In this document: positions 10,251 through 17,428 of the stretch, one piece after another
Layout: every line of letters starts with the position of its first letter
How positions within the stretch are numbered: the first letter of the stretch is position 1
Source: Arthrobacter ruber
GTDB lineage: Bacteria; Actinomycetota; Actinomycetes; Actinomycetales; Micrococcaceae
Assembly: GCF_002954225.1 (NCBI RefSeq)
Contig: NZ_PPTH01000016.1
Location: 439,114 to 503,113, forward strand
Reading direction: 5' to 3'
Length of the DNA stretch: 64,000 nt
The notes under the pieces: generated by a model
Seen by the model: the letters and a program-made list of their open reading frames with translations, nothing else
Database searches by the model: none
What the model was told of the DNA's origin: nothing
Program-made: the position numbers and the translations under genes

Positions 10251-10649
10251 ATGACCAAACCACTGATGATCCTGATTGCCGGCCCGTACCGCAGCGGGAC
10301 GAACGATGACCCCGCTCTCCTCTCCGCCAACCTCCGCGCCCTCGAGGCATATGCATGGCCTGTCTTCGAGAAAGGCCACATCCCGATGATCGGGGAGTGG
10401 GTGGCCCTGCCCGTCCTCGAAAGCGCGGGTGCGGGGCTTGCCGACCCGCTGGCGGAGAAGGTCATGTATCCCACGGCGCAACGCCTGCTGCACCACTGCG
10501 ATGCCGTCCTGCGTCTGCCCGGCAATTCCCGGGGTGCCGACAATGACGTTCTGATCGCCAGGGAACTGGGACTCCCCGTCTACACGGACGTCATGGACAT
10601 CCCCGTGCGGGAGGCTCACCATGCACCCGCTCGGGCCGTCGGATCATGA
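10251..10649 (+). CDS. DUF4406 (nucleoside 2-deoxyribosyltransferase-like) protein
   Basis: This 132-residue protein starts at ATG 10251 directly behind a leaderless-type promoter. It begins with LMILIAGPYRSGT, the first strand and loop of the nucleoside 2-deoxyribosyltransferase fold, and ends with a GNSRGADNDVLIARELGLPVY segment that matches the family's second conserved region. Members cleave or transfer N-glycosidic bonds of nucleosides, but DUF4406 members are mostly uncharacterised. It overlaps the following racemase gene by four bases (ATGA), so they are translationally coupled. A DeoR-type regulator precedes them, which fits sugar or nucleoside control. Confidence 0.8.
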   Translation: MTKPLMILIAGPYRSGTNDDPALLSANLRALEAYAWPVFEKGHIPMIGEWVALPVLESAGAGLADPLAEKVMYPTAQRLLHHCDAVLRLPGNSRGADNDVLIARELGLPVYTDVMDIPVREAHHAPARAVGS

Positions 10650-11335
10650 AGCGCATCGGGCTTCTGGGCGGCATGAGTTGGGAATCCACCGTCGAGTACT
10701 ACCGGTTGGCGAACGAACTGGTGCGCAACCGGCTCGGCGGCGTCCACTCGGCCAGTATCCTGCTCGACTCCATGAACTTCGCCGTCATGGAGAAGCTGCA
10801 GTCGGCCGGAAAATGGCAGGAAGCCGGCACCATGCTCGCCGGCAAGGCCTCGGCGTTGGAAGCCGCCGGCGCGGACATGATCGTCCTCTGCACCAACACC
10901 ATGCACATCGTCGCCGACTCCATCGAACGAGCGGTGAAGATCCCCGTGCTGCACATCGTCGACGCGACCTCGGCCAGAATCACGCAGGCCGGCCTGAAGC
11001 GTGTCGGGCTGCTAGGGACCGCGTTCACCATGGAACACAGCTTCTACCGCGACCGACTCTCCGCCGCCGGCGTGGAAGCCATAGTGCCCGAACGCTCCGA
11101 CCAGGCCACGGTCCATCGGATCATCTACGAGGAGCTCGTCCGCGGCATCGTCAGCGACGAGTCCCGCGCAGAGTACGCAGCGATCATGGAACGCCTCGTT
11201 GAGGCCGGCGCCCAAGGAATCATCCTCGGTTGCACCGAGATCGAGATGCTGGTGACCCCGGCAGACAGCACCGTCCCGTTGTTCCCTACCACTCAGATCC
11301 ACATCGAAACCGCCGTCGAACACGCATTCCACTGA
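10646..11335 (+). CDS. Aspartate/glutamate racemase family protein
   Basis: The protein has 229 residues. The start is fixed by the ATGA overlap with the preceding gene. It opens with the family motif GLLGGMSWEST and has both catalytic cysteines: C82 in LCTNTMH and C196 in LGCTEIE. These act as the acid and base that interconvert L- and D-amino acids without a cofactor. YgeA-like members have broad or unusual amino-acid specificity, so the substrate cannot be assigned. D-amino acids for peptidoglycan or for catabolism are both possible. Confidence 0.9.
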   Translation: MKRIGLLGGMSWESTVEYYRLANELVRNRLGGVHSASILLDSMNFAVMEKLQSAGKWQEAGTMLAGKASALEAAGADMIVLCTNTMHIVADSIERAVKIPVLHIVDATSARITQAGLKRVGLLGTAFTMEHSFYRDRLSAAGVEAIVPERSDQATVHRIIYEELVRGIVSDESRAEYAAIMERLVEAGAQGIILGCTEIEMLVTPADSTVPLFPTTQIHIETAVEHAFH

Positions 11336-11377
11336 GTCATTCGACGGACGAGGTGGCCACCAACCGCGCCCGCCGGG

Positions 11378-12481
11378 TCATCGCGGTGAGCCGCTTCCGG
11401 GCTGGATACCACCTTCGATCCATGGGTAACCCGTGGCCAGGGGGGCGCCGTCGTCGTGGCGTGATAGCCATTCGACCGCAGCACCGTGGTAGCGGTGGAA
11501 TCCCTTGTAGTCGGCGAGTTCGGGGTCCAGGGACGCGAGCGCCCGATGTACTCGTTTCGCCCAGCCCGGAGCGTGTTCCACCAGCTCGGCAAGGCTGACG
11601 AGGTAGGTACGGACCGGGAAGACGATGGCGTTCGATCGCGGCAGACGATGCAGGGGCTGCAGTTCGATGCGCAGGTACACCATGTCTCCCGCGTTCTCAG
11701 CGGTGACCCGCGCGCGATCCGGGGCCCAGTCGGGAAGCGTCTCCACCGAGGTCTCGAGACGCGGATGGACGGTCAGCGACCAATTGACCCGCCGGACGGG
11801 GTGACCGGGCTTCATACGGAGCAGGAACTTGAGCGCCCGGTCGAGGATCCCCATCTTGTCCAACTTGGGCACGGGGCCGTGGAACTCCGAGAAGTTCATG
11901 CCGAGATTGAACTGCAGGGAGTAGTCGGCGCGCTGGGTCGTCATGCCGGCGCCGATGACGAGGGTGTTGTCCCTCTCCTCGAGTACGACGAACTCTCCCT
12001 GGGCCTGGCGCGTGGCGTACTCCATCGGATCCATCGGCAGGGTTTCAGGATCGCCGAAGGTGAAGGAGTCGTCGATGCCGAGGAGCCGGTTCTGCCACCG
12101 CCACTCGTTCCCGTTCCTGGTGAGGGTGAAGTGCTCGGGGAAGTCCCTGTTATACGACTCGAAGATGAGTTCCAGGAGGTCCCACTGCGCCTCCATCATG
12201 TGCGGCAGCGCGAGGTAGTGGACACCTGGCATCTCTCGCAGCATCTGGTCGCGATGGGCACACTCGGACACATAGTGCTCATCGACGTCGAAGGCAGCCC
12301 TCAGGGCGCCGGTGCCGGCCGAAACGTGCGGTTCGAGATTCATTGAGTACATGTACTCGTCGTCCGGGAACGGGAACGGGAGACGGCGAACCGCCTCGCG
12401 TGAATTCCGGAACCGGTACTCCCCGCCCGGCGTATAGGTCTCGTCCGGTGTGAATCCGGCTGGGTTGGATACCGCTGTCAT
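11378..12481 (-). CDS. Heme-dependent oxidative N-demethylase (DUF3445) subunit
   Basis: ATG 12481 is chosen because AAGGAG lies upstream; this gives 367 residues. The protein belongs to the DUF3445 family, whose characterised members use heme in a PAS-like fold to remove methyl groups oxidatively from amines such as dimethylamine. Family segments visible include WRWQNRLLGI, ERDNTLVIGAGM and VNWSLTVHPRLET, followed by a C-terminal RTYLVSLAELVE helix and a WLSRH end. It closes an operon with an APC permease, a DmmA-like protein and a flavin/2Fe-2S reductase that would supply electrons. The actual substrate is not known. Confidence 0.87.
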   Translation of the reverse strand: MTAVSNPAGFTPDETYTPGGEYRFRNSREAVRRLPFPFPDDEYMYSMNLEPHVSAGTGALRAAFDVDEHYVSECAHRDQMLREMPGVHYLALPHMMEAQWDLLELIFESYNRDFPEHFTLTRNGNEWRWQNRLLGIDDSFTFGDPETLPMDPMEYATRQAQGEFVVLEERDNTLVIGAGMTTQRADYSLQFNLGMNFSEFHGPVPKLDKMGILDRALKFLLRMKPGHPVRRVNWSLTVHPRLETSVETLPDWAPDRARVTAENAGDMVYLRIELQPLHRLPRSNAIVFPVRTYLVSLAELVEHAPGWAKRVHRALASLDPELADYKGFHRYHGAAVEWLSRHDDGAPLATGYPWIEGGIQPGSGSPR

Positions 12482-12492
12482 CGGTGTTCTCC

Positions 12493-13464
12493 TTAAGCGT
12501 TCAGAACGAGTTTTGTACAGGTGGCCCGCGAGACGCAGGGCATGATGAGCTTGTTCGTGCAGCGGTCCGATTCGGACAGCCAGTCGTCCCGGTGGTCGAT
12601 GGTGCCTTCGAGCTCCAGGACCTCGGTCTCGCATTCACCGCATGCACCTCCCCGGCAGAGGTAGGGCAGCTTGTGGCCCGCCTCCTCGACAGCCTCCAGC
12701 AGCGACTGCTCGGGGGACACCTCGACGACCGCTCCGGACCGCGCCAGGGTGACGGAGAAGGGATCGCCGGTGGACCCGAGGTCCTCGAACCGCTCGAAGT
12801 GGATGTGCGAGTCCGTCCAGCCGTGGGTGTGTGCCGCCCGGATGACGTCGTCGACCATGCGCGAGGGTCCGCAGACGTAGGCGTGGGTGCCGAGCGGCAG
12901 CCCACCGAGGATCTCGTACGAGTTCAGCCGGGTCCCGTCGCCATCGCCGTACAGCACGACCCTCTCCCCGTAGCGTTCCCGGAGTTCATGCCCGAGAGCG
13001 GCATGCTCCGGGCCGCGGACCGCGAGGTGGAGTTCGAACGAGCTTCCCTTGAGACTCAGTTCGTCGAGTTGGGCATAGATGGGCGTGACCCCGACGCCTC
13101 CGGCGATGAAGACGTGATGCCGCGCGTGCTTGGAGACAGGGAAGAGATTCGCCGGGATGGTGGCGGACAGGACGTCGCCCTCGCGGACATCCCTGTGCAT
13201 GGCGATGGAGCCGCGCTTCCCTTCGTCGACCCGGCGGACGGCGATCTGGTATTCGCTGGTGTCGTAGGGCGAACTCATGAGCGAGTAGGCGTTGCGTCTG
13301 GTCTCCCCCTCGAACGGGATCAGGACCCTGATATGGCTGCCGCCGGAGAAGGGCGGGAGCCAGGACCCGTCCGCCGCGGAGAACGTGTACCGGTTGATCT
13401 CCGGAGTGACGGCCTCTATGCGCTTCACCCTGAGCTGCAGGGATCCGTGGTGCGCCTCGCTCAT
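12493..13464 (-). CDS. Flavin and 2Fe-2S oxidoreductase of the N-demethylase
   Basis: This is a 323-residue reductase of the phthalate dioxygenase reductase type. An FMN-binding barrel comes first, with R57-N-A-Y-S61. An NAD-binding domain follows, with GGVGVTP at 122-128 and a VCGPSRM segment near 197. A plant-type ferredoxin domain ends the protein, with cluster ligands C270, C275, C278 and C310. It carries electrons from NAD(P)H through FMN to the iron-sulfur cluster and on to the heme protein encoded 11 bases downstream. ATG 13464 overlaps the stop of the DmmA-like gene by four bases. It corresponds to the reductase subunit of dimethylamine monooxygenase-type systems. Confidence 0.9.
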   Translation of the reverse strand: MSEAHHGSLQLRVKRIEAVTPEINRYTFSAADGSWLPPFSGGSHIRVLIPFEGETRRNAYSLMSSPYDTSEYQIAVRRVDEGKRGSIAMHRDVREGDVLSATIPANLFPVSKHARHHVFIAGGVGVTPIYAQLDELSLKGSSFELHLAVRGPEHAALGHELRERYGERVVLYGDGDGTRLNSYEILGGLPLGTHAYVCGPSRMVDDVIRAAHTHGWTDSHIHFERFEDLGSTGDPFSVTLARSGAVVEVSPEQSLLEAVEEAGHKLPYLCRGGACGECETEVLELEGTIDHRDDWLSESDRCTNKLIMPCVSRATCTKLVLNA

Positions 13465-14066
13465 GTGTCCAACTCCTCGTTCTCCGGAAGCTCGCCCGGT
13501 ACTTCGCCGTCCGCTTTGACTCCCTGGAACGCAGCGAGCCTCCCCGAGTAGTGATCACGGACGATCAGGTTGCGTTCGCACCCCGGGCATCGGAAGATCC
13601 GCCGGGACACGTTCTCGGAATAGTGGCTGCAGTGCGCGCACCATACGCGGCGCACGAAGGAACCTGCATGCTCGCGCAGTACCTCGTCGCGGTTCATGCC
13701 GTAGGAGGTGGCGACTTGCATCGACGTGCCGATGAACCCTTCGGAACCGGAGAGGTACAGCCGGGTGCCCATCTTCGCGGTCGCGAGGAACGCGTCGAGT
13801 CCCCTCACGGCGTCGGCATTGTTCGGGAACACGACGAGTTCGCGGACTGCGAAGTTCCGGAGGTCGGCCAGGTAGTTCTTCCCGGTGAACGACTCGATCG
13901 AGTAGAGCACGGTGGTCGCCGCCAGCTGTCCCGGAATCATCGCTCCGAGCAGCCGCACCAGCGGCTCTCCGCCACTGCCCTGTGCGGCAGCGACATGGCT
14001 CGTGCCGGTCGCCATCGGCGCCAGCTCGTCGTAGATGGGGCGGCTCTTGATGCCAGTGATCAGCAT
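13461..14066 (-). CDS. DmmA-like subunit with a C-terminal four-cysteine ribbon
   Basis: This 201-residue protein resembles the DmmA-type subunit of dimethylamine monooxygenases. Residues about 30-120 have alternating hydrophobic strands, suggesting a flavodoxin- or ferredoxin-reductase-like alpha/beta fold. The C-terminal 60 residues are the conserved DmmA-like domain with C143-x2-C146 and C160-x2-C163, which probably bind zinc or iron, followed by VRDHYSGRLAAFQGV. It lies seven bases after the permease stop and overlaps the reductase start by four bases. ATG 14066 is preferred because upstream codons are Arg/Pro rich. Its role is probably structural or in electron transfer. Confidence 0.78.
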   Translation of the reverse strand: MLITGIKSRPIYDELAPMATGTSHVAAAQGSGGEPLVRLLGAMIPGQLAATTVLYSIESFTGKNYLADLRNFAVRELVVFPNNADAVRGLDAFLATAKMGTRLYLSGSEGFIGTSMQVATSYGMNRDEVLREHAGSFVRRVWCAHCSHYSENVSRRIFRCPGCERNLIVRDHYSGRLAAFQGVKADGEVPGELPENEELDT

Positions 14067-14073
14067 GGCTCTG

Positions 14074-15621
14074 CTACCTCTGATCCTTCGATGGAGCCGA
14101 CAGGACGGCGTCCTGTCGGTTGCCGGCCGGGGCGGTAGGAACTGCATCGGCTGCCGGAGCATCACCCTTGAGGTACGGCTTCTTCCAGGCCATGTAGACG
14201 AGTCCCACCACCACGACGGAGACTGCGGAGATCAGGACGACGTAGTTGGCGAACCAGCCATCCTCCGGTGTCCGGGGCCACGCCATGTTCACCATGCCGA
14301 GTACGCCCCAGACGAGGGCTGCGATATTGACCGGGATGCCCCAGGCACCCAGTTGGAAGGCGCCGTTCGGCTTCCAGCCGAGGAGGCGGGCCCGCAGCGA
14401 GGCGAGGACGACCATCTGGAACCCCATGTACATCCCCATGGCCGCGAACGAGATGATCACTGTCAGGGCGTCACTGGAGACCTTCGATCCGACGACGATG
14501 GCGGCGGGCACCAGCCCTGCCAGGAGCAGGGCGTACGGAGGTACGTGACGGGACTCGCTGAAGGTGCTCAGGAGCCTGCTGCCCGGGAGGATGCCGTCGC
14601 GGGCCATCGAGTAGGCGAGGCGCGAGGTGGCTGCCTGCAGGCTCAGGACGCATGAGAGGAACGAGACCAGGACGATGGCAAGCACCACCTTGAAGCCGAT
14701 GGGGCCGAAGGCCGACAGGAGGATGTTGCCGACGGGATCGGTGTCGGTGCCTGAGATCACGGCCGCGAAATCCGGGACGGCGAGGATCAGGGACAGGCAG
14801 ACGAACATTGCTGCGAAACCACCGATGTAGATGGTCATCCGCATGGCCTTGGGGATCGTGCGGCCCGGGTTCGGGACTTCCTCAGCCACGTCACCGCAGG
14901 CTTCGAAGCCGTAGTACTGGAAGATGCCGATCAACCCGGCGGCCGCGAAAGCCACGAAGTAGCTGCTGCCCTCTCCTGCACCGAAGGCCTGGAACAGGAC
15001 ACCGAGGTCGTGGTGCCTGGCCGTCAGCAGCAGCCAGCTCCCCACTGCCAGGGCACCGCCGAGCTCGGCCAGGAGGCCTATCATCGCCACGGTGTTCAGG
15101 ACCTTGGTTCCTCCCAGGTTCAGGACCGTGGCAAGCGCTATCACCACGAGACCCGAGACGATCACGGAGTCGACGGTGTTCTCCATACCGACGAGCGTGC
15201 TCAGGAACGGTCCTGCCCCGTACGCGACGCTGGCGATGGTGGTCAGGAGCGCGACCAGGTAGACCCAACCATTCATCCAGCCCCATTTGCGGCCCCATAG
15301 CCTGCGTGACCAGGGATAGACCCCCCCGGCCACGGGGTACGCCGCGACGACCTCCCCGAAGACGGTGGCGACGAGGAGTTGACCGACGCCGACGATGACG
15401 AGGGACCAGAACATCGGCGGGCCCGCGACGCCTAGTGATGCCGCGAACAGCGAGTACACGGCCACAACCGGCGACAGGTAGGTGAACCCCAGCGAGACAT
15501 TCCCCCAGAACGTCATCTCCCGCTTGAACTGCCGCTCGTAGGAGTAGCCGAGGCTGGCGAGGTGCTGGGCGTCCTGGTCGGCGACAGACTCCTTGGGCGG
15601 TTCTGCACTATCTACACGCAT
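14074..15621 (-). CDS. APC superfamily amino acid/amine permease
   Basis: The protein has 515 residues and about twelve membrane segments. Membrane segment 1 carries the substrate-site pattern GFTYLSPVVAVYSLF. A conserved GFEACGDVAEEVPNPGRTIP segment near residue 265 is typical of the amino-acid/choline transporter branch that takes up GABA, choline or polyamines. The N-terminal 45 residues are cytoplasmic and charged; the C-terminal 30 are flexible. As first gene of the N-demethylase operon it probably imports the methylated amine or amino acid that the operon degrades. ATG 15621 is used; the upstream region carries a palindrome that may be the operator. Confidence 0.87.
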   Translation of the reverse strand: MRVDSAEPPKESVADQDAQHLASLGYSYERQFKREMTFWGNVSLGFTYLSPVVAVYSLFAASLGVAGPPMFWSLVIVGVGQLLVATVFGEVVAAYPVAGGVYPWSRRLWGRKWGWMNGWVYLVALLTTIASVAYGAGPFLSTLVGMENTVDSVIVSGLVVIALATVLNLGGTKVLNTVAMIGLLAELGGALAVGSWLLLTARHHDLGVLFQAFGAGEGSSYFVAFAAAGLIGIFQYYGFEACGDVAEEVPNPGRTIPKAMRMTIYIGGFAAMFVCLSLILAVPDFAAVISGTDTDPVGNILLSAFGPIGFKVVLAIVLVSFLSCVLSLQAATSRLAYSMARDGILPGSRLLSTFSESRHVPPYALLLAGLVPAAIVVGSKVSSDALTVIISFAAMGMYMGFQMVVLASLRARLLGWKPNGAFQLGAWGIPVNIAALVWGVLGMVNMAWPRTPEDGWFANYVVLISAVSVVVVGLVYMAWKKPYLKGDAPAADAVPTAPAGNRQDAVLSAPSKDQR

Positions 15622-15968
15622 GGGGTTCCTTCTCTTGGATCCTCAGGGGCTCATGTGAGCTGGACCACGTCGCAAAAACTATAGTTTCAAATGTTTAACT
15701 CCGCAACACCAGCCCAAGCACCCCCTGATCGGCAGGTGGAGCGTGACCCAAGGTGGTGCAAGAGGTCCATAACCTATGTTTCCGATGGATTTTCTGAACT
15801 AGTCGATACACTTGTGACACTCCTGTAGGAGAGCGGCTGCAGGCGAATACGCCGGCAGCCGTTCGAGGGGTTCGTCGGAGGCAGCCGCGGTCCGTCCTGC
15901 TACCGTCCGGTGCGGGGAACGGCGCCGACTAAACTTGCTGCTGTCCTCACACCGCATGGAGTCTCTAC
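15622..15968. promoter_or_regulatory. Divergent control region with perfect palindrome
   Basis: These 347 bases separate the permease operon (minus) from the GntR-Cache operon (plus). AAACTATAGTTT at 15676-15687 is a perfect 12-bp palindrome, about 55 bases before the permease start. A degenerate relative, AACCTATGTTT, lies near 15771-15781. The palindrome sits in an unusually A/T-rich stretch that includes CAAATGTTTAACT. GntR-FCD regulators bind short palindromes of this size, so the divergent regulator is the likely ligand. The palindrome is seen directly; the binding is inferred. Confidence 0.5.
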
Positions 15969-16730
15969 TTGGCACCCACCACCGCCTTCCAGGCCCACGT
16001 CTACCGATCGCTGCCGGAGACGGAGCGCTCAGACGCCATTGTGAACAGGATCTCCAAGGCGATCTCCCTGGGTCTGCTGAAGGTCGGGGAGCGGCTCCCC
16101 TCGGAGACAGCGCTTTCGGAGATGTTCGGCGTCGCGCCGTCCACACTCAGGGAAGCGCTGTCGGACCTGCGGCAGCAGGGAATCGTTGCCACACGGCGAG
16201 GACGCAGCGGCGGGACGTTCATCGTCAAGCAACCCTTCATGTCGCCCGATGCGACGAGGAGATGGCTGCAGGAGACGTCCATCGCGGAGCTACGGGACCT
16301 GGGCGACGAGCATGCCGCCATCGCTGCTGCCACGGTTCGACTGGCCTGCGAACGAGCCGAATCCCACGAGGTCGGCAGGCTGCTCGACCTCGCTCGGGCA
16401 CTGGTCATGTCGGACAAGTCCGAAGCGCGCGCCCACGCTGACAGCCGGTTCCACATCGAACTGGCGGTCCTTGCGCAATCGCCGCGGCTCACCAACGCGG
16501 AGATAAGGCTGCAGGCCGAAACGGTCCAGGCTCTGTGGGCACCCTTGTCATCGACCCGCGATCCGGAACGGGTGGCCGCGGAACACCTCGCCGTGGCTCG
16601 CGCCATCGCCGACGACGCACCCGAGGAGGCCCAGCGGCTGGTACTGCAGCATATCCGCCACGACATCCACCACCTCGTCGATGCCAAATTGTCCCTCGGG
16701 TACCCCACGAATCAGGAGGAGCGACCATGA
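15969..16730 (+). CDS. GntR family regulator with FCD domain
   Basis: This is a 253-residue protein. TTG 15969 is the only reasonable in-frame start before the DNA-binding domain; ATG 15956 is in another frame. Residues about 20-88 form the winged helix typical of GntR proteins, with ERLPSETALSEMFGVAPSTLREAL and a GIVATRRGRSGGTFI wing. The rest is an all-helical FCD domain with metal-ligand-like His residues (DSRFHIELAV, QHIRHDIHH). These regulators usually repress catabolic genes and are released by an acidic or amine substrate. It faces the N-demethylase operon and overlaps the Cache gene by four bases, so ligand sensing may be shared. Confidence 0.87.
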   Translation: MAPTTAFQAHVYRSLPETERSDAIVNRISKAISLGLLKVGERLPSETALSEMFGVAPSTLREALSDLRQQGIVATRRGRSGGTFIVKQPFMSPDATRRWLQETSIAELRDLGDEHAAIAAATVRLACERAESHEVGRLLDLARALVMSDKSEARAHADSRFHIELAVLAQSPRLTNAEIRLQAETVQALWAPLSSTRDPERVAAEHLAVARAIADDAPEEAQRLVLQHIRHDIHHLVDAKLSLGYPTNQEERP

Positions 16731-17428
16731 CGGCCAGTGCCCCCGCCCTGAAGGCCGCCCGCGAGATAGCAGCCTGGACGAACGCCCTGAGCCTCGACGT
16801 GCATGAGTTCGCGGCACGCTCGGCCGAGCTCTGGTCGGGTCGTCCACGCCCCCTCTCGATCACCCGCGGGGACATCGCACGGCTGGAGGAATTGGTAGGG
16901 GCGTTCCTCGAGACCCACGATTTCGTCGTCGGAGCGGGCGCGATCTTCTCCACCGAAGCCATCAGGAGCAAGGACGGCGGTCTCGAGTGGTGGATCAGGC
17001 GTGAGCGCAGCATCGAGAAGCTGGAGTTCGACCTGACACCGGGCGGAGAACGGTTCTACGACTACCAGAACATGCCATTCTTCGCCTCGGCGAGTCGAAC
17101 CGGCGAACAGACCGTGTGGGGACCGTACGTCGACTACCTCGGGATGGACGAATACATCCTCACCTACTCGGCACCGATTCAGCTGGAAGGAGAGTTCGCG
17201 GGAGTCGCGGGCTGTGACATCAGGATCAAAAAGCTGGAGGAGATACTCATGCCCACACTCCGTTCGATTCCCGGGGACGCCGCGCTGCTCAATGCCGGTG
17301 GCCGCGTCGTCGTCGGCAATTCCGGGGCGCATCTGGTGGGTGAGAGAGTCCGCTCGACGTCGGGCGGACGAAGCCTGATCCCGATCGAGGTACCGCATCT
17401 GGGGTTCTCGCTGCTGGTCTCCCCCTAG
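16727..17428 (+). CDS. Cache-like sensor domain protein
   Basis: This 233-residue protein starts in an ATGA overlap with the GntR gene. It resembles a stand-alone Cache (PAS-like) ligand-binding domain, with RFYDYQNMPFFASA and VWGPYVDYLGMDEYILTYS followed by GVAGCDIRIKKLE, which match the ligand pocket and closing helix of double-Cache sensors for amino acids and amines. There is no signal peptide or membrane segment, so it should be cytoplasmic, which is unusual for Cache domains. It probably modulates the GntR regulator or binds the pathway substrate. The function is inferred from fold and position only. Confidence 0.7.
   Translation: MTASAPALKAAREIAAWTNALSLDVHEFAARSAELWSGRPRPLSITRGDIARLEELVGAFLETHDFVVGAGAIFSTEAIRSKDGGLEWWIRRERSIEKLEFDLTPGGERFYDYQNMPFFASASRTGEQTVWGPYVDYLGMDEYILTYSAPIQLEGEFAGVAGCDIRIKKLEEILMPTLRSIPGDAALLNAGGRVVVGNSGAHLVGERVRSTSGGRSLIPIEVPHLGFSLLVSP

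Follow-up and report, generated by a model that had tools for sequence, protein, structure and literature searches.

A possible C4-amine oxygenase operon with a GntR-Cache regulator pair in Arthrobacter ruber, within a sister clade of the dimethylamine monooxygenases

Background

The heme-dependent N-demethylase HODM attacks a secondary amine, and its known substrate is a very small one. In a 64,000-nucleotide stretch of DNA from Arthrobacter ruber (NCBI RefSeq assembly GCF_002954225.1, contig NZ_PPTH01000016.1, positions 439,114 to 503,113 of the forward strand), called the window hereafter, an operon of four genes encodes a permease and three subunits of the HODM/DmmABC kind, and next to it lie divergent genes for a GntR regulator and for a stand-alone Cache protein. 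A reading made from the sequence alone had described an N-demethylase operon with its own permease and regulator pair, and had remarked that the folate-binding subunit (DmmD, of the GcvT type) was missing. The locus thus raises two questions: which amine is oxidised, and how is the operon switched on?

We propose that the operon encodes a C4-amine oxygenase whose product would be 4-aminobutanal, and that a split receptor composed of GntR and Cache would control it; taken as a whole, we give this explanation slightly better than even chances. Its extension to the entire clade, as a HODM-like heme PAS enzyme acting as a C4-amine (pyrrolidine or polyamine) monooxygenase in Actinobacteria and Pseudomonas and switched on by a novel cytosolic Cache protein with a GntR/FCD regulator, in trans or fused, is more tentative, and we place it a little short of even. 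This is a real, conserved amine oxidation operon built on a known kind of enzyme, and the balance of the evidence favours a job for its clade other than dimethylamine demethylation.

Results and discussion

The window enzyme belongs to a sister clade of the dimethylamine monooxygenases

The catalytic subunit (HODM-alpha) is a member of PF11927 (219 bits, E 9e-65, cut-off 25), is 53.7% identical to PDB 5LTE over the aligned part of 335 residues, and is encoded by the only gene of this kind in the 3.66 Mb genome to which the window belongs. DmmA, reductase and heme subunit are encoded together, as in three-subunit enzymes of the DmmABC type, so that the subunit set claimed by the sequence-only reading is borne out by Pfam and NCBIfam matches (Table 1). 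The subunit families and the gene order dmmA-dmmB-dmmC are those of the DmmDABC systems of Ruegeria and Paracoccus, and the same reductase and DmmA partners accompany the Pseudomonas oleovorans copy (locus L187) that is identical to HODM (PDB 5LTE, 5LTH and 5LTI), the source organism of which we take to be a Pseudomonas. The tight packing that had been noticed holds as well: 7 bases separate permease and DmmA genes, 11 separate reductase and alpha genes, and there are 4-base overlaps between DmmA and reductase and between GntR and Cache, the latter two genes being divergent from the four minus-strand genes.

Related loci were collected by a similarity scan of genome contigs (the best 80 of 98) together with four others, and searches by class and phylum added further loci; because they were picked by similarity, the group II species described below are not independent of each other. 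Neighbourhoods were compared by protein similarity within 8 kb, alpha rows below 60 bits being excluded, and rows were grouped by identity to the window protein (group II at least 60%, group I 44-60%, group III 33-44%, and a far group below that). This gave 150 rows, namely 84 in group II, 38 in group I, 22 in group III (from 19 loci, mostly of Actinobacteria) and 6 far ones, with loci cut by contig ends included in all counts. In a tree of 106 rows obtained by a quick search (39 of the 85 rows that group II has once the window is counted in, all 39 rows of group I together with 5LTE, 22 of group III and 6 far), group II forms a single clade with a Shimodaira-Hasegawa-like approximate likelihood ratio test (SH-aLRT) value of 100. 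It is sister to group I, where 5LTE and Paracoccus DmmC are found, at a weak 81, and the window enzyme therefore lies outside the clade of the dimethylamine monooxygenases; one group III row, L219, was placed among the far rows.

Group II comprises 20 loci of Actinobacteria (the Pseudarthrobacter locus L027 counted among them) and 64 of Pseudomonas, a set that takes in L205, L207 and L209, which are from Pseudomonadota and fall among Pseudomonas in the tree. DmmA adjoins the alpha gene in 82 of the 84 and the reductase in 83, while L044 has neither beside its alpha gene in spite of full flanks. Since DmmA, the reductase and the GntR-Cache pair recur beside the alpha gene across these loci of two phyla, the arrangement is not a matter of chance.

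Besides forming a separate clade, group II differs from HODM and its relatives at 17 columns where groups I and II each keep a residue of their own; the same comparison also yielded a list of invariant residues. Four of the exchanges bring smaller side chains into group II (W180Y, W193F, F206L and Y242L, 5LTE numbering), which would suit a larger substrate provided that these positions line the pocket.

Table 1. Features of the amine oxidation locus, in positions of the window.
Feature	Position	Strand	Remarks
HODM-alpha / DmmC-like heme (PAS-fold) catalytic subunit, group II	11378..12481	-	367 amino acids (aa); PF11927
DmmB-like flavin/2Fe-2S reductase subunit	12493..13464	-	323 aa; Fer2, FAD_binding_6 and NAD_binding_1 above cut-off
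DmmA-like subunit	13461..14066	-	201 aa; PF22290, PF22289; NF041259 109 bits, cut-off 60
APC-family permease, first gene of the operon	14074..15621	-	515 aa; PF13520
Conserved block GTGGTCCAGCTCACA, candidate operator upstream of permease	15654..15668	-	in 12/12 aligned regions
Palindrome AAACTATAGTTT	15676..15687	.	not conserved as a dyad; holds -10-like TATAGT on the minus strand
GntR/FCD transcriptional regulator, TTG start	15969..16730	+	253 aa; PF00392, PF07729
Stand-alone cytosolic Cache (dCache_1-like), proposed amine receptor for GntR	16727..17428	+	233 aa; PF22673 E 2e-10

Neither the operon nor its clade has the folate subunit

No GcvT gene lies within the operon. The search of the genome for the missing subunit, which had been suggested together with the first reading, returned five open frames that match GCV_T, one of which scores below the cut-off, with lengths of 466, 847, 1018, 399 and 249 aa; judging by length and company, they are presumably gcvT of the glycine-cleavage system, a protein of the dehydrogenase type, a pair resembling sarcosine oxidase and a remote relative. 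Rhizobium DmmD has its best match in the genome, at 32% identity, in the 466-aa gene, and on these two grounds a DmmD encoded elsewhere in the genome was ruled out. The reported absence of the folate subunit therefore stands, and it extends to the clade: DmmD adjoins none of the 84 group II loci as against 35 of the 38 group I loci (0/61 and 34/35 when only loci flanked on each side by more than 6 kb are counted). Among 14 whole genomes with a group II enzyme, DmmD is found only in G394, from P. oleovorans (68% identical), the best matches in the other 13 reaching 29-34%. Its only DmmD adjoins a second enzyme, a group I copy that does not differ from 5LTE in any of 333 columns, and the group II copy of the same genome has none. 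Side by side, the first of these loci (L187) carries DmmD, FolD and PurU, and the second (L025) carries an aminobutyraldehyde dehydrogenase (PatD) and an MFS transporter. More generally, the neighbours of group I enzymes are DmmD and, in part, FolD, PurU, GlnT/GmaS, Tmm-like proteins and sarcosine oxidase, and these genes are beside 0/84 group II loci.

One alternative is that the enzyme is an ordinary monooxygenase of dimethylamine or of another methylamine that works without a folate subunit, its formaldehyde being passed to the ribulose monophosphate route or to other dehydrogenases. The identity to 5LTE given above is in its favour, and a missing DmmD is by itself compatible with formaldehyde as product, since the 22 group III rows are without it too. 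According to PMC5520151, E. coli with dmmABC but no dmmD degraded dimethylamine, and a dmmD mutant of R. pomeroyi given dmmABC grew on dimethylamine, dmmD being needed there for trimethylamine and its oxide and not for dimethylamine; a paper on Nesterenkonia reads a dmmABC cluster, of whichever group it may be, in the same manner from KEGG numbers. Formaldehyde could also be fixed in the window genome, because it encodes a hexulose-phosphate synthase (260 bits, cut-off 200). This enzyme is, however, above the cut-off in only 3 of 11 group II genomes, that of the window included, and below it in the other 8, one of which is a genome of the same genus that has the operon. For GmaS, which would deal with the methylamine product, 12 of 14 group II genomes, again including that of the window, gave nothing at E 1e-60, and the other two gave 36-42% identity, compared with 79 and 88% in two group I genomes. 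Moreover, DmmD is retained at group I loci in Pseudomonadota and missing from those of group II, even in a genome with both, and the route has no place for the dehydrogenase linkage described next. We consider this explanation, with dimethylamine as a possible substrate of group II, unlikely.

An aminobutyraldehyde dehydrogenase is linked to the operon in Pseudomonas

In 40 of the 64 Pseudomonas group II loci, unlike those of HODM, the operon has a co-directional PatD gene (a match in L044, 37% identical and on the opposite strand, is left out of this count). Two examples scored 857 and 878 bits with TIGR03374 (cut-off 909) and 820 and 836 bits with PRK13473 (cut-off 615), and dehydrogenase matches in group I are limited to two weak ones (29 and 33%) on the opposite strand. 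In L025, dmmABC directly follows PatD, which is itself preceded by the gene of a YdcS-type binding protein (752 bits, cut-off 725) and the other ABC genes. This resembles the YdcSTUV-PatD (YdcW) operon, and the PatD of group II loci scores in the same NCBIfam families; no oxygenase is known from the E. coli operon. The window genome encodes an aminobutyraldehyde dehydrogenase on another contig (650 bits, cut-off 615), where the gene adjoins that of a gamma-aminobutyrate (GABA) transaminase (795 bits, cut-off 639).

From this linkage we infer that the aldehyde to be handled is 4-aminobutanal. The four minus-strand genes would then provide for uptake and oxidation. The APC permease (its best NCBIfam match, TIGR03428, reaches 220 bits, under the cut-off of 740) may import the amine; the reductase, together with DmmA, would hand electrons to the heme of the PAS-fold subunit, as is assumed by analogy with HODM and DmmABC; and the heme subunit would hydroxylate the carbon adjoining the amine nitrogen, giving a carbinolamine that collapses. 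The product in group II would be 4-aminobutanal, in equilibrium with 1-pyrroline, which a PatD-type dehydrogenase, encoded in the operon or, in the window genome, beside the GABA transaminase, could convert to GABA. A folate subunit would not be needed in such a pathway, the product being 4-aminobutanal and not formaldehyde.

Our best single guess for the substrate is pyrrolidine, with spermidine and putrescine close behind. As a small, cyclic secondary amine, pyrrolidine would open to 4-aminobutanal without loss of a C1 unit, and the second step of its use by bacteria, an aminobutyraldehyde dehydrogenase, was reportedly described in 1959. The name N-demethylase given by the sequence-only reading probably denotes a reaction that this clade does not carry out, since what is linked to it is the gene of an aminobutyraldehyde dehydrogenase and not those of formaldehyde-handling enzymes; its further suggestion that the substrate is an amine other than plain dimethylamine is the likelier one.

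A cytosolic Cache protein is coupled to GntR and may bind an amine

The regulator of the window belongs to the FCD subfamily of GntR (helix-turn-helix 53.5 bits, cut-off 27; FCD 50.3 bits, cut-off 24.3). Among the 84 group II loci, GntR is beside 45, Cache beside 44 and the pair beside 44; neither is beside any of the 38 group I loci, which include Paracoccus DmmC and the 5LTE-identical copy. An NtrC-type gene is near 33 group II loci, in 32 of them instead of the pair and in one (L033) together with both. The 32, L055 and 31 others, are all of Pseudomonas, and the activator constitutes there a second, different regulator; a further conserved gene precedes the NtrC-type gene in 28 of 80 scanned loci and was PAS-containing in the one tested.

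The pair also exists apart from the oxygenase. A Cache profile built from 24 proteins (alignment A1) has matches at E 1e-8 in 34 of 296 Actinomycete genomes, and among 35 loci that have Cache but no dmm genes nearby, 32 have a same-strand adjacent GntR gene, two encode a fused GntR-FCD-Cache protein of 495-496 residues and only one (L276) is without GntR. One of the fusions is in the window genome itself (contig C17, L280:6714-8204, 496 aa), where its neighbours, a glutamine-synthetase-like gene, two peptidase C26 genes and a pyridine-nucleotide oxidoreductase gene, suggest gamma-glutamyl amine breakdown. In another genome of the same order (G195, locus L141), a pair whose members are 67 and 46% identical to those of the window accompanies a group III enzyme, so that the pair crosses enzyme groups.

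The divergent pair and its overlap had been correctly described, and the idea that Cache is a ligand receptor in its own right, with GntR as its partner, is strengthened by this coupling in 34 of 35 loci. We propose that the two form a split intracellular receptor, in which amine-bound Cache would control GntR and GntR would act on the intergenic region. They might instead be independent, Cache having lost its signalling role and GntR alone sensing the inducer through an FCD domain that is intact by Pfam; among close Arthrobacter and Pseudarthrobacter relatives, Cache is indeed less conserved than GntR (63-87% compared with 81-91%). The adjacency or fusion in those 34 loci and the invariance of several ligand-site residues make such independence improbable, the least likely of the alternatives considered here.

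These residues were counted in 54 rows, 24 linked to dmm genes and 30 of the 35 other loci, Cache frames of at least 320 aa being dropped. W88, D136, T146 and D164 are invariant in 54/54, and Y134 is kept in 52 and replaced by F in two. Residue roles were taken from PMC10104139, the amine-binding residues of PctD being W155, F188, M215, S217 and D235. By hand, through alignments with PctA and 3LIB, Cache F118, I144, T146 and D164 were matched to PctD F188, M215, S217 (here a T) and D235; for W155 the choice of W88 or W89 rests on spacing alone, W88 being invariant by the residue-count script and W89 in alignment A1, and R103 and D133, above the pocket, are outside the matched set. Where PctA has the carboxylate-binding R126, all 24 dmm-linked rows have M, L, I, A or S, and Arg occurs in 3/30 others. 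Y111 is kept in 24/24 dmm-linked rows compared with 15/30 others. A hydrophobic residue occupies the M215 position in 24/24 dmm-linked rows, compared with S or T in 16/30 others, so that the wider GntR-Cache module may bind other ligands. With several residues of the chemoreceptor amine site kept and the carboxylate-binding Arg absent, we propose that the window Cache binds an amine.

The AlphaFold model (predicted local distance difference test score 90.6) has a double Cache fold, with the top Z of 20.4 to McpU with putrescine, shared with the Leptospira receptor 6PZJ; PctD, McpX, TlpQ and CqsR are within 1 Z of McpU. The amino-acid sensor CtaA, at Z 19.6, is tied with the amine sensors, and for this reason the fold alone does not indicate the ligand. 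Like the dCache_1 amine receptors (McpU, PctD, PacA, McpX and 3LIB, Z 19.4-20.4), the protein thus keeps the fold and several ligand-site residues; unlike them, it stands alone, is paired with or fused to GntR/FCD and has no output domain of its own. Nor is it the extracytoplasmic domain of a membrane receptor, as in dCache_1AM, for hydropathy gave no transmembrane stretch (highest 19-residue value 1.39, compared with 2.59 in the permease). In a 2016 survey (PMC4822843), Cache domains figure as the principal sensors that prokaryotes have outside the cell, 78% being confidently extracellular and only two small families mainly intracellular, and GntR is unmentioned in its main text. A narrow literature search found no paper on Cache combined with GntR, and the pair looks like a new intracellular use of these domains.

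Pyrrolidine or a polyamine as possible substrate

A closely related alternative keeps the product and changes the substrate: spermidine, or another 4-aminobutyl secondary amine, would be split into 4-aminobutanal and a second amine, or putrescine itself would be deaminated. Near 21 of the 35 GntR-Cache loci lie members of three or more out of four ABC transporter families (an aldehyde dehydrogenase is near 10), with single representatives scoring 366 bits as PotA-like (cut-off 356) and 363 as YdcS-like (below the cut-off of 725). Together with the YdcS/Pot-type genes and PatD directly ahead of dmmABC in L025, and with the putrescine receptor at the top, ties included, of the Cache comparison, this argues for a polyamine. 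An APC or Pseudomonas MFS transporter, on the other hand, is near 81 of the 84 group II loci (54 APC and 29 MFS, some rows having both or neither), genes for 1,3-diaminopropane were not seen, though no search was aimed at them, and the HODM substrate mentioned at the outset is very small. We regard a polyamine as a somewhat less probable substrate than pyrrolidine, yet more probable than dimethylamine.

Several facts weigh against the pyrrolidine reading, and some of them against 4-aminobutanal altogether. PatD is beside the operon in 0/20 actinobacterial loci and is absent from 24 of the 64 Pseudomonas loci; in three actinobacterial loci, of Pseudarthrobacter, a dehydrogenase of the succinate-semialdehyde type (one tested) follows the operon instead, and PatD could serve the product of some other enzyme. 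The YdcS-type transporter beside it suits a polyamine better than pyrrolidine, as spermidine or putrescine fit such an ABC transporter better. The 17 group-specific columns were compared at the level of sequence, and to these points are added those on formaldehyde and on dmmD already given.

The intergenic region

For the palindrome AAACTATAGTTT, which the sequence-only reading had put forward as a site to test for GntR binding, conservation points elsewhere. It is exact in the window and in 3 of 11 orthologues and altered in the rest, and it overlaps the -10-like TATAGT, which is accompanied by TTGCGG 17 bases upstream, a pair too weak for the strict sigma-70 scan; it was therefore rejected as a conserved operator. 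Just downstream, the block GTGGTCCAGCTCACA keeps the core GTGG[TC]CC[ACT]GCTCACA in all 12 aligned intergenic regions, which are from close relatives and include the window, and is the better candidate. A second, partly conserved stretch upstream of GntR (15768-15792, AAATCCATCGGAAACATAGGTTATG on the minus strand) is possibly the promoter or operator of the GntR gene itself. A strict scan for sigma-70 promoters and terminators over 15500-16050 and 11200-11600 found nothing.

Neighbouring genes and group III enzymes

An aspartate/glutamate racemase gene at 10646-11335 was tried as a member of the pathway; it had no match in the 80 loci L007-L086 (E 1e-8, more than 40% coverage) and is taken as a mere neighbour. 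No gene names were found for Pseudomonas putida KT2440 through one locus tag or in two papers on amines. In group III, loci L138, L148 and L156 carry tandem pairs of HODM-alpha with DmmB, an EutQ-like cupin and a GlnT-like gene (about 40% identical). PMC5023230 proposes EutQ in methylamine oxidation, and among Gram-positive methylotrophs it found no distinct enzyme as candidate for a dimethylamine monooxygenase; group III is such a candidate.

Conclusions

Group II is probably a mislabelled clade, liable to be filed as dimethylamine monooxygenase. If our reading is true, a common branch of a presumed dimethylamine enzyme family has another substrate, and counts of dimethylamine users based on dmmABC annotations would consequently be too high. 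It would also provide candidates for the genes with which pyrrolidine use begins in bacteria, or for those of polyamine cleavage, and Cache as a cytosolic partner of GntR, widespread and in some cases fused to it, would offer a handle on the inducers of many amine operons as yet unassigned.

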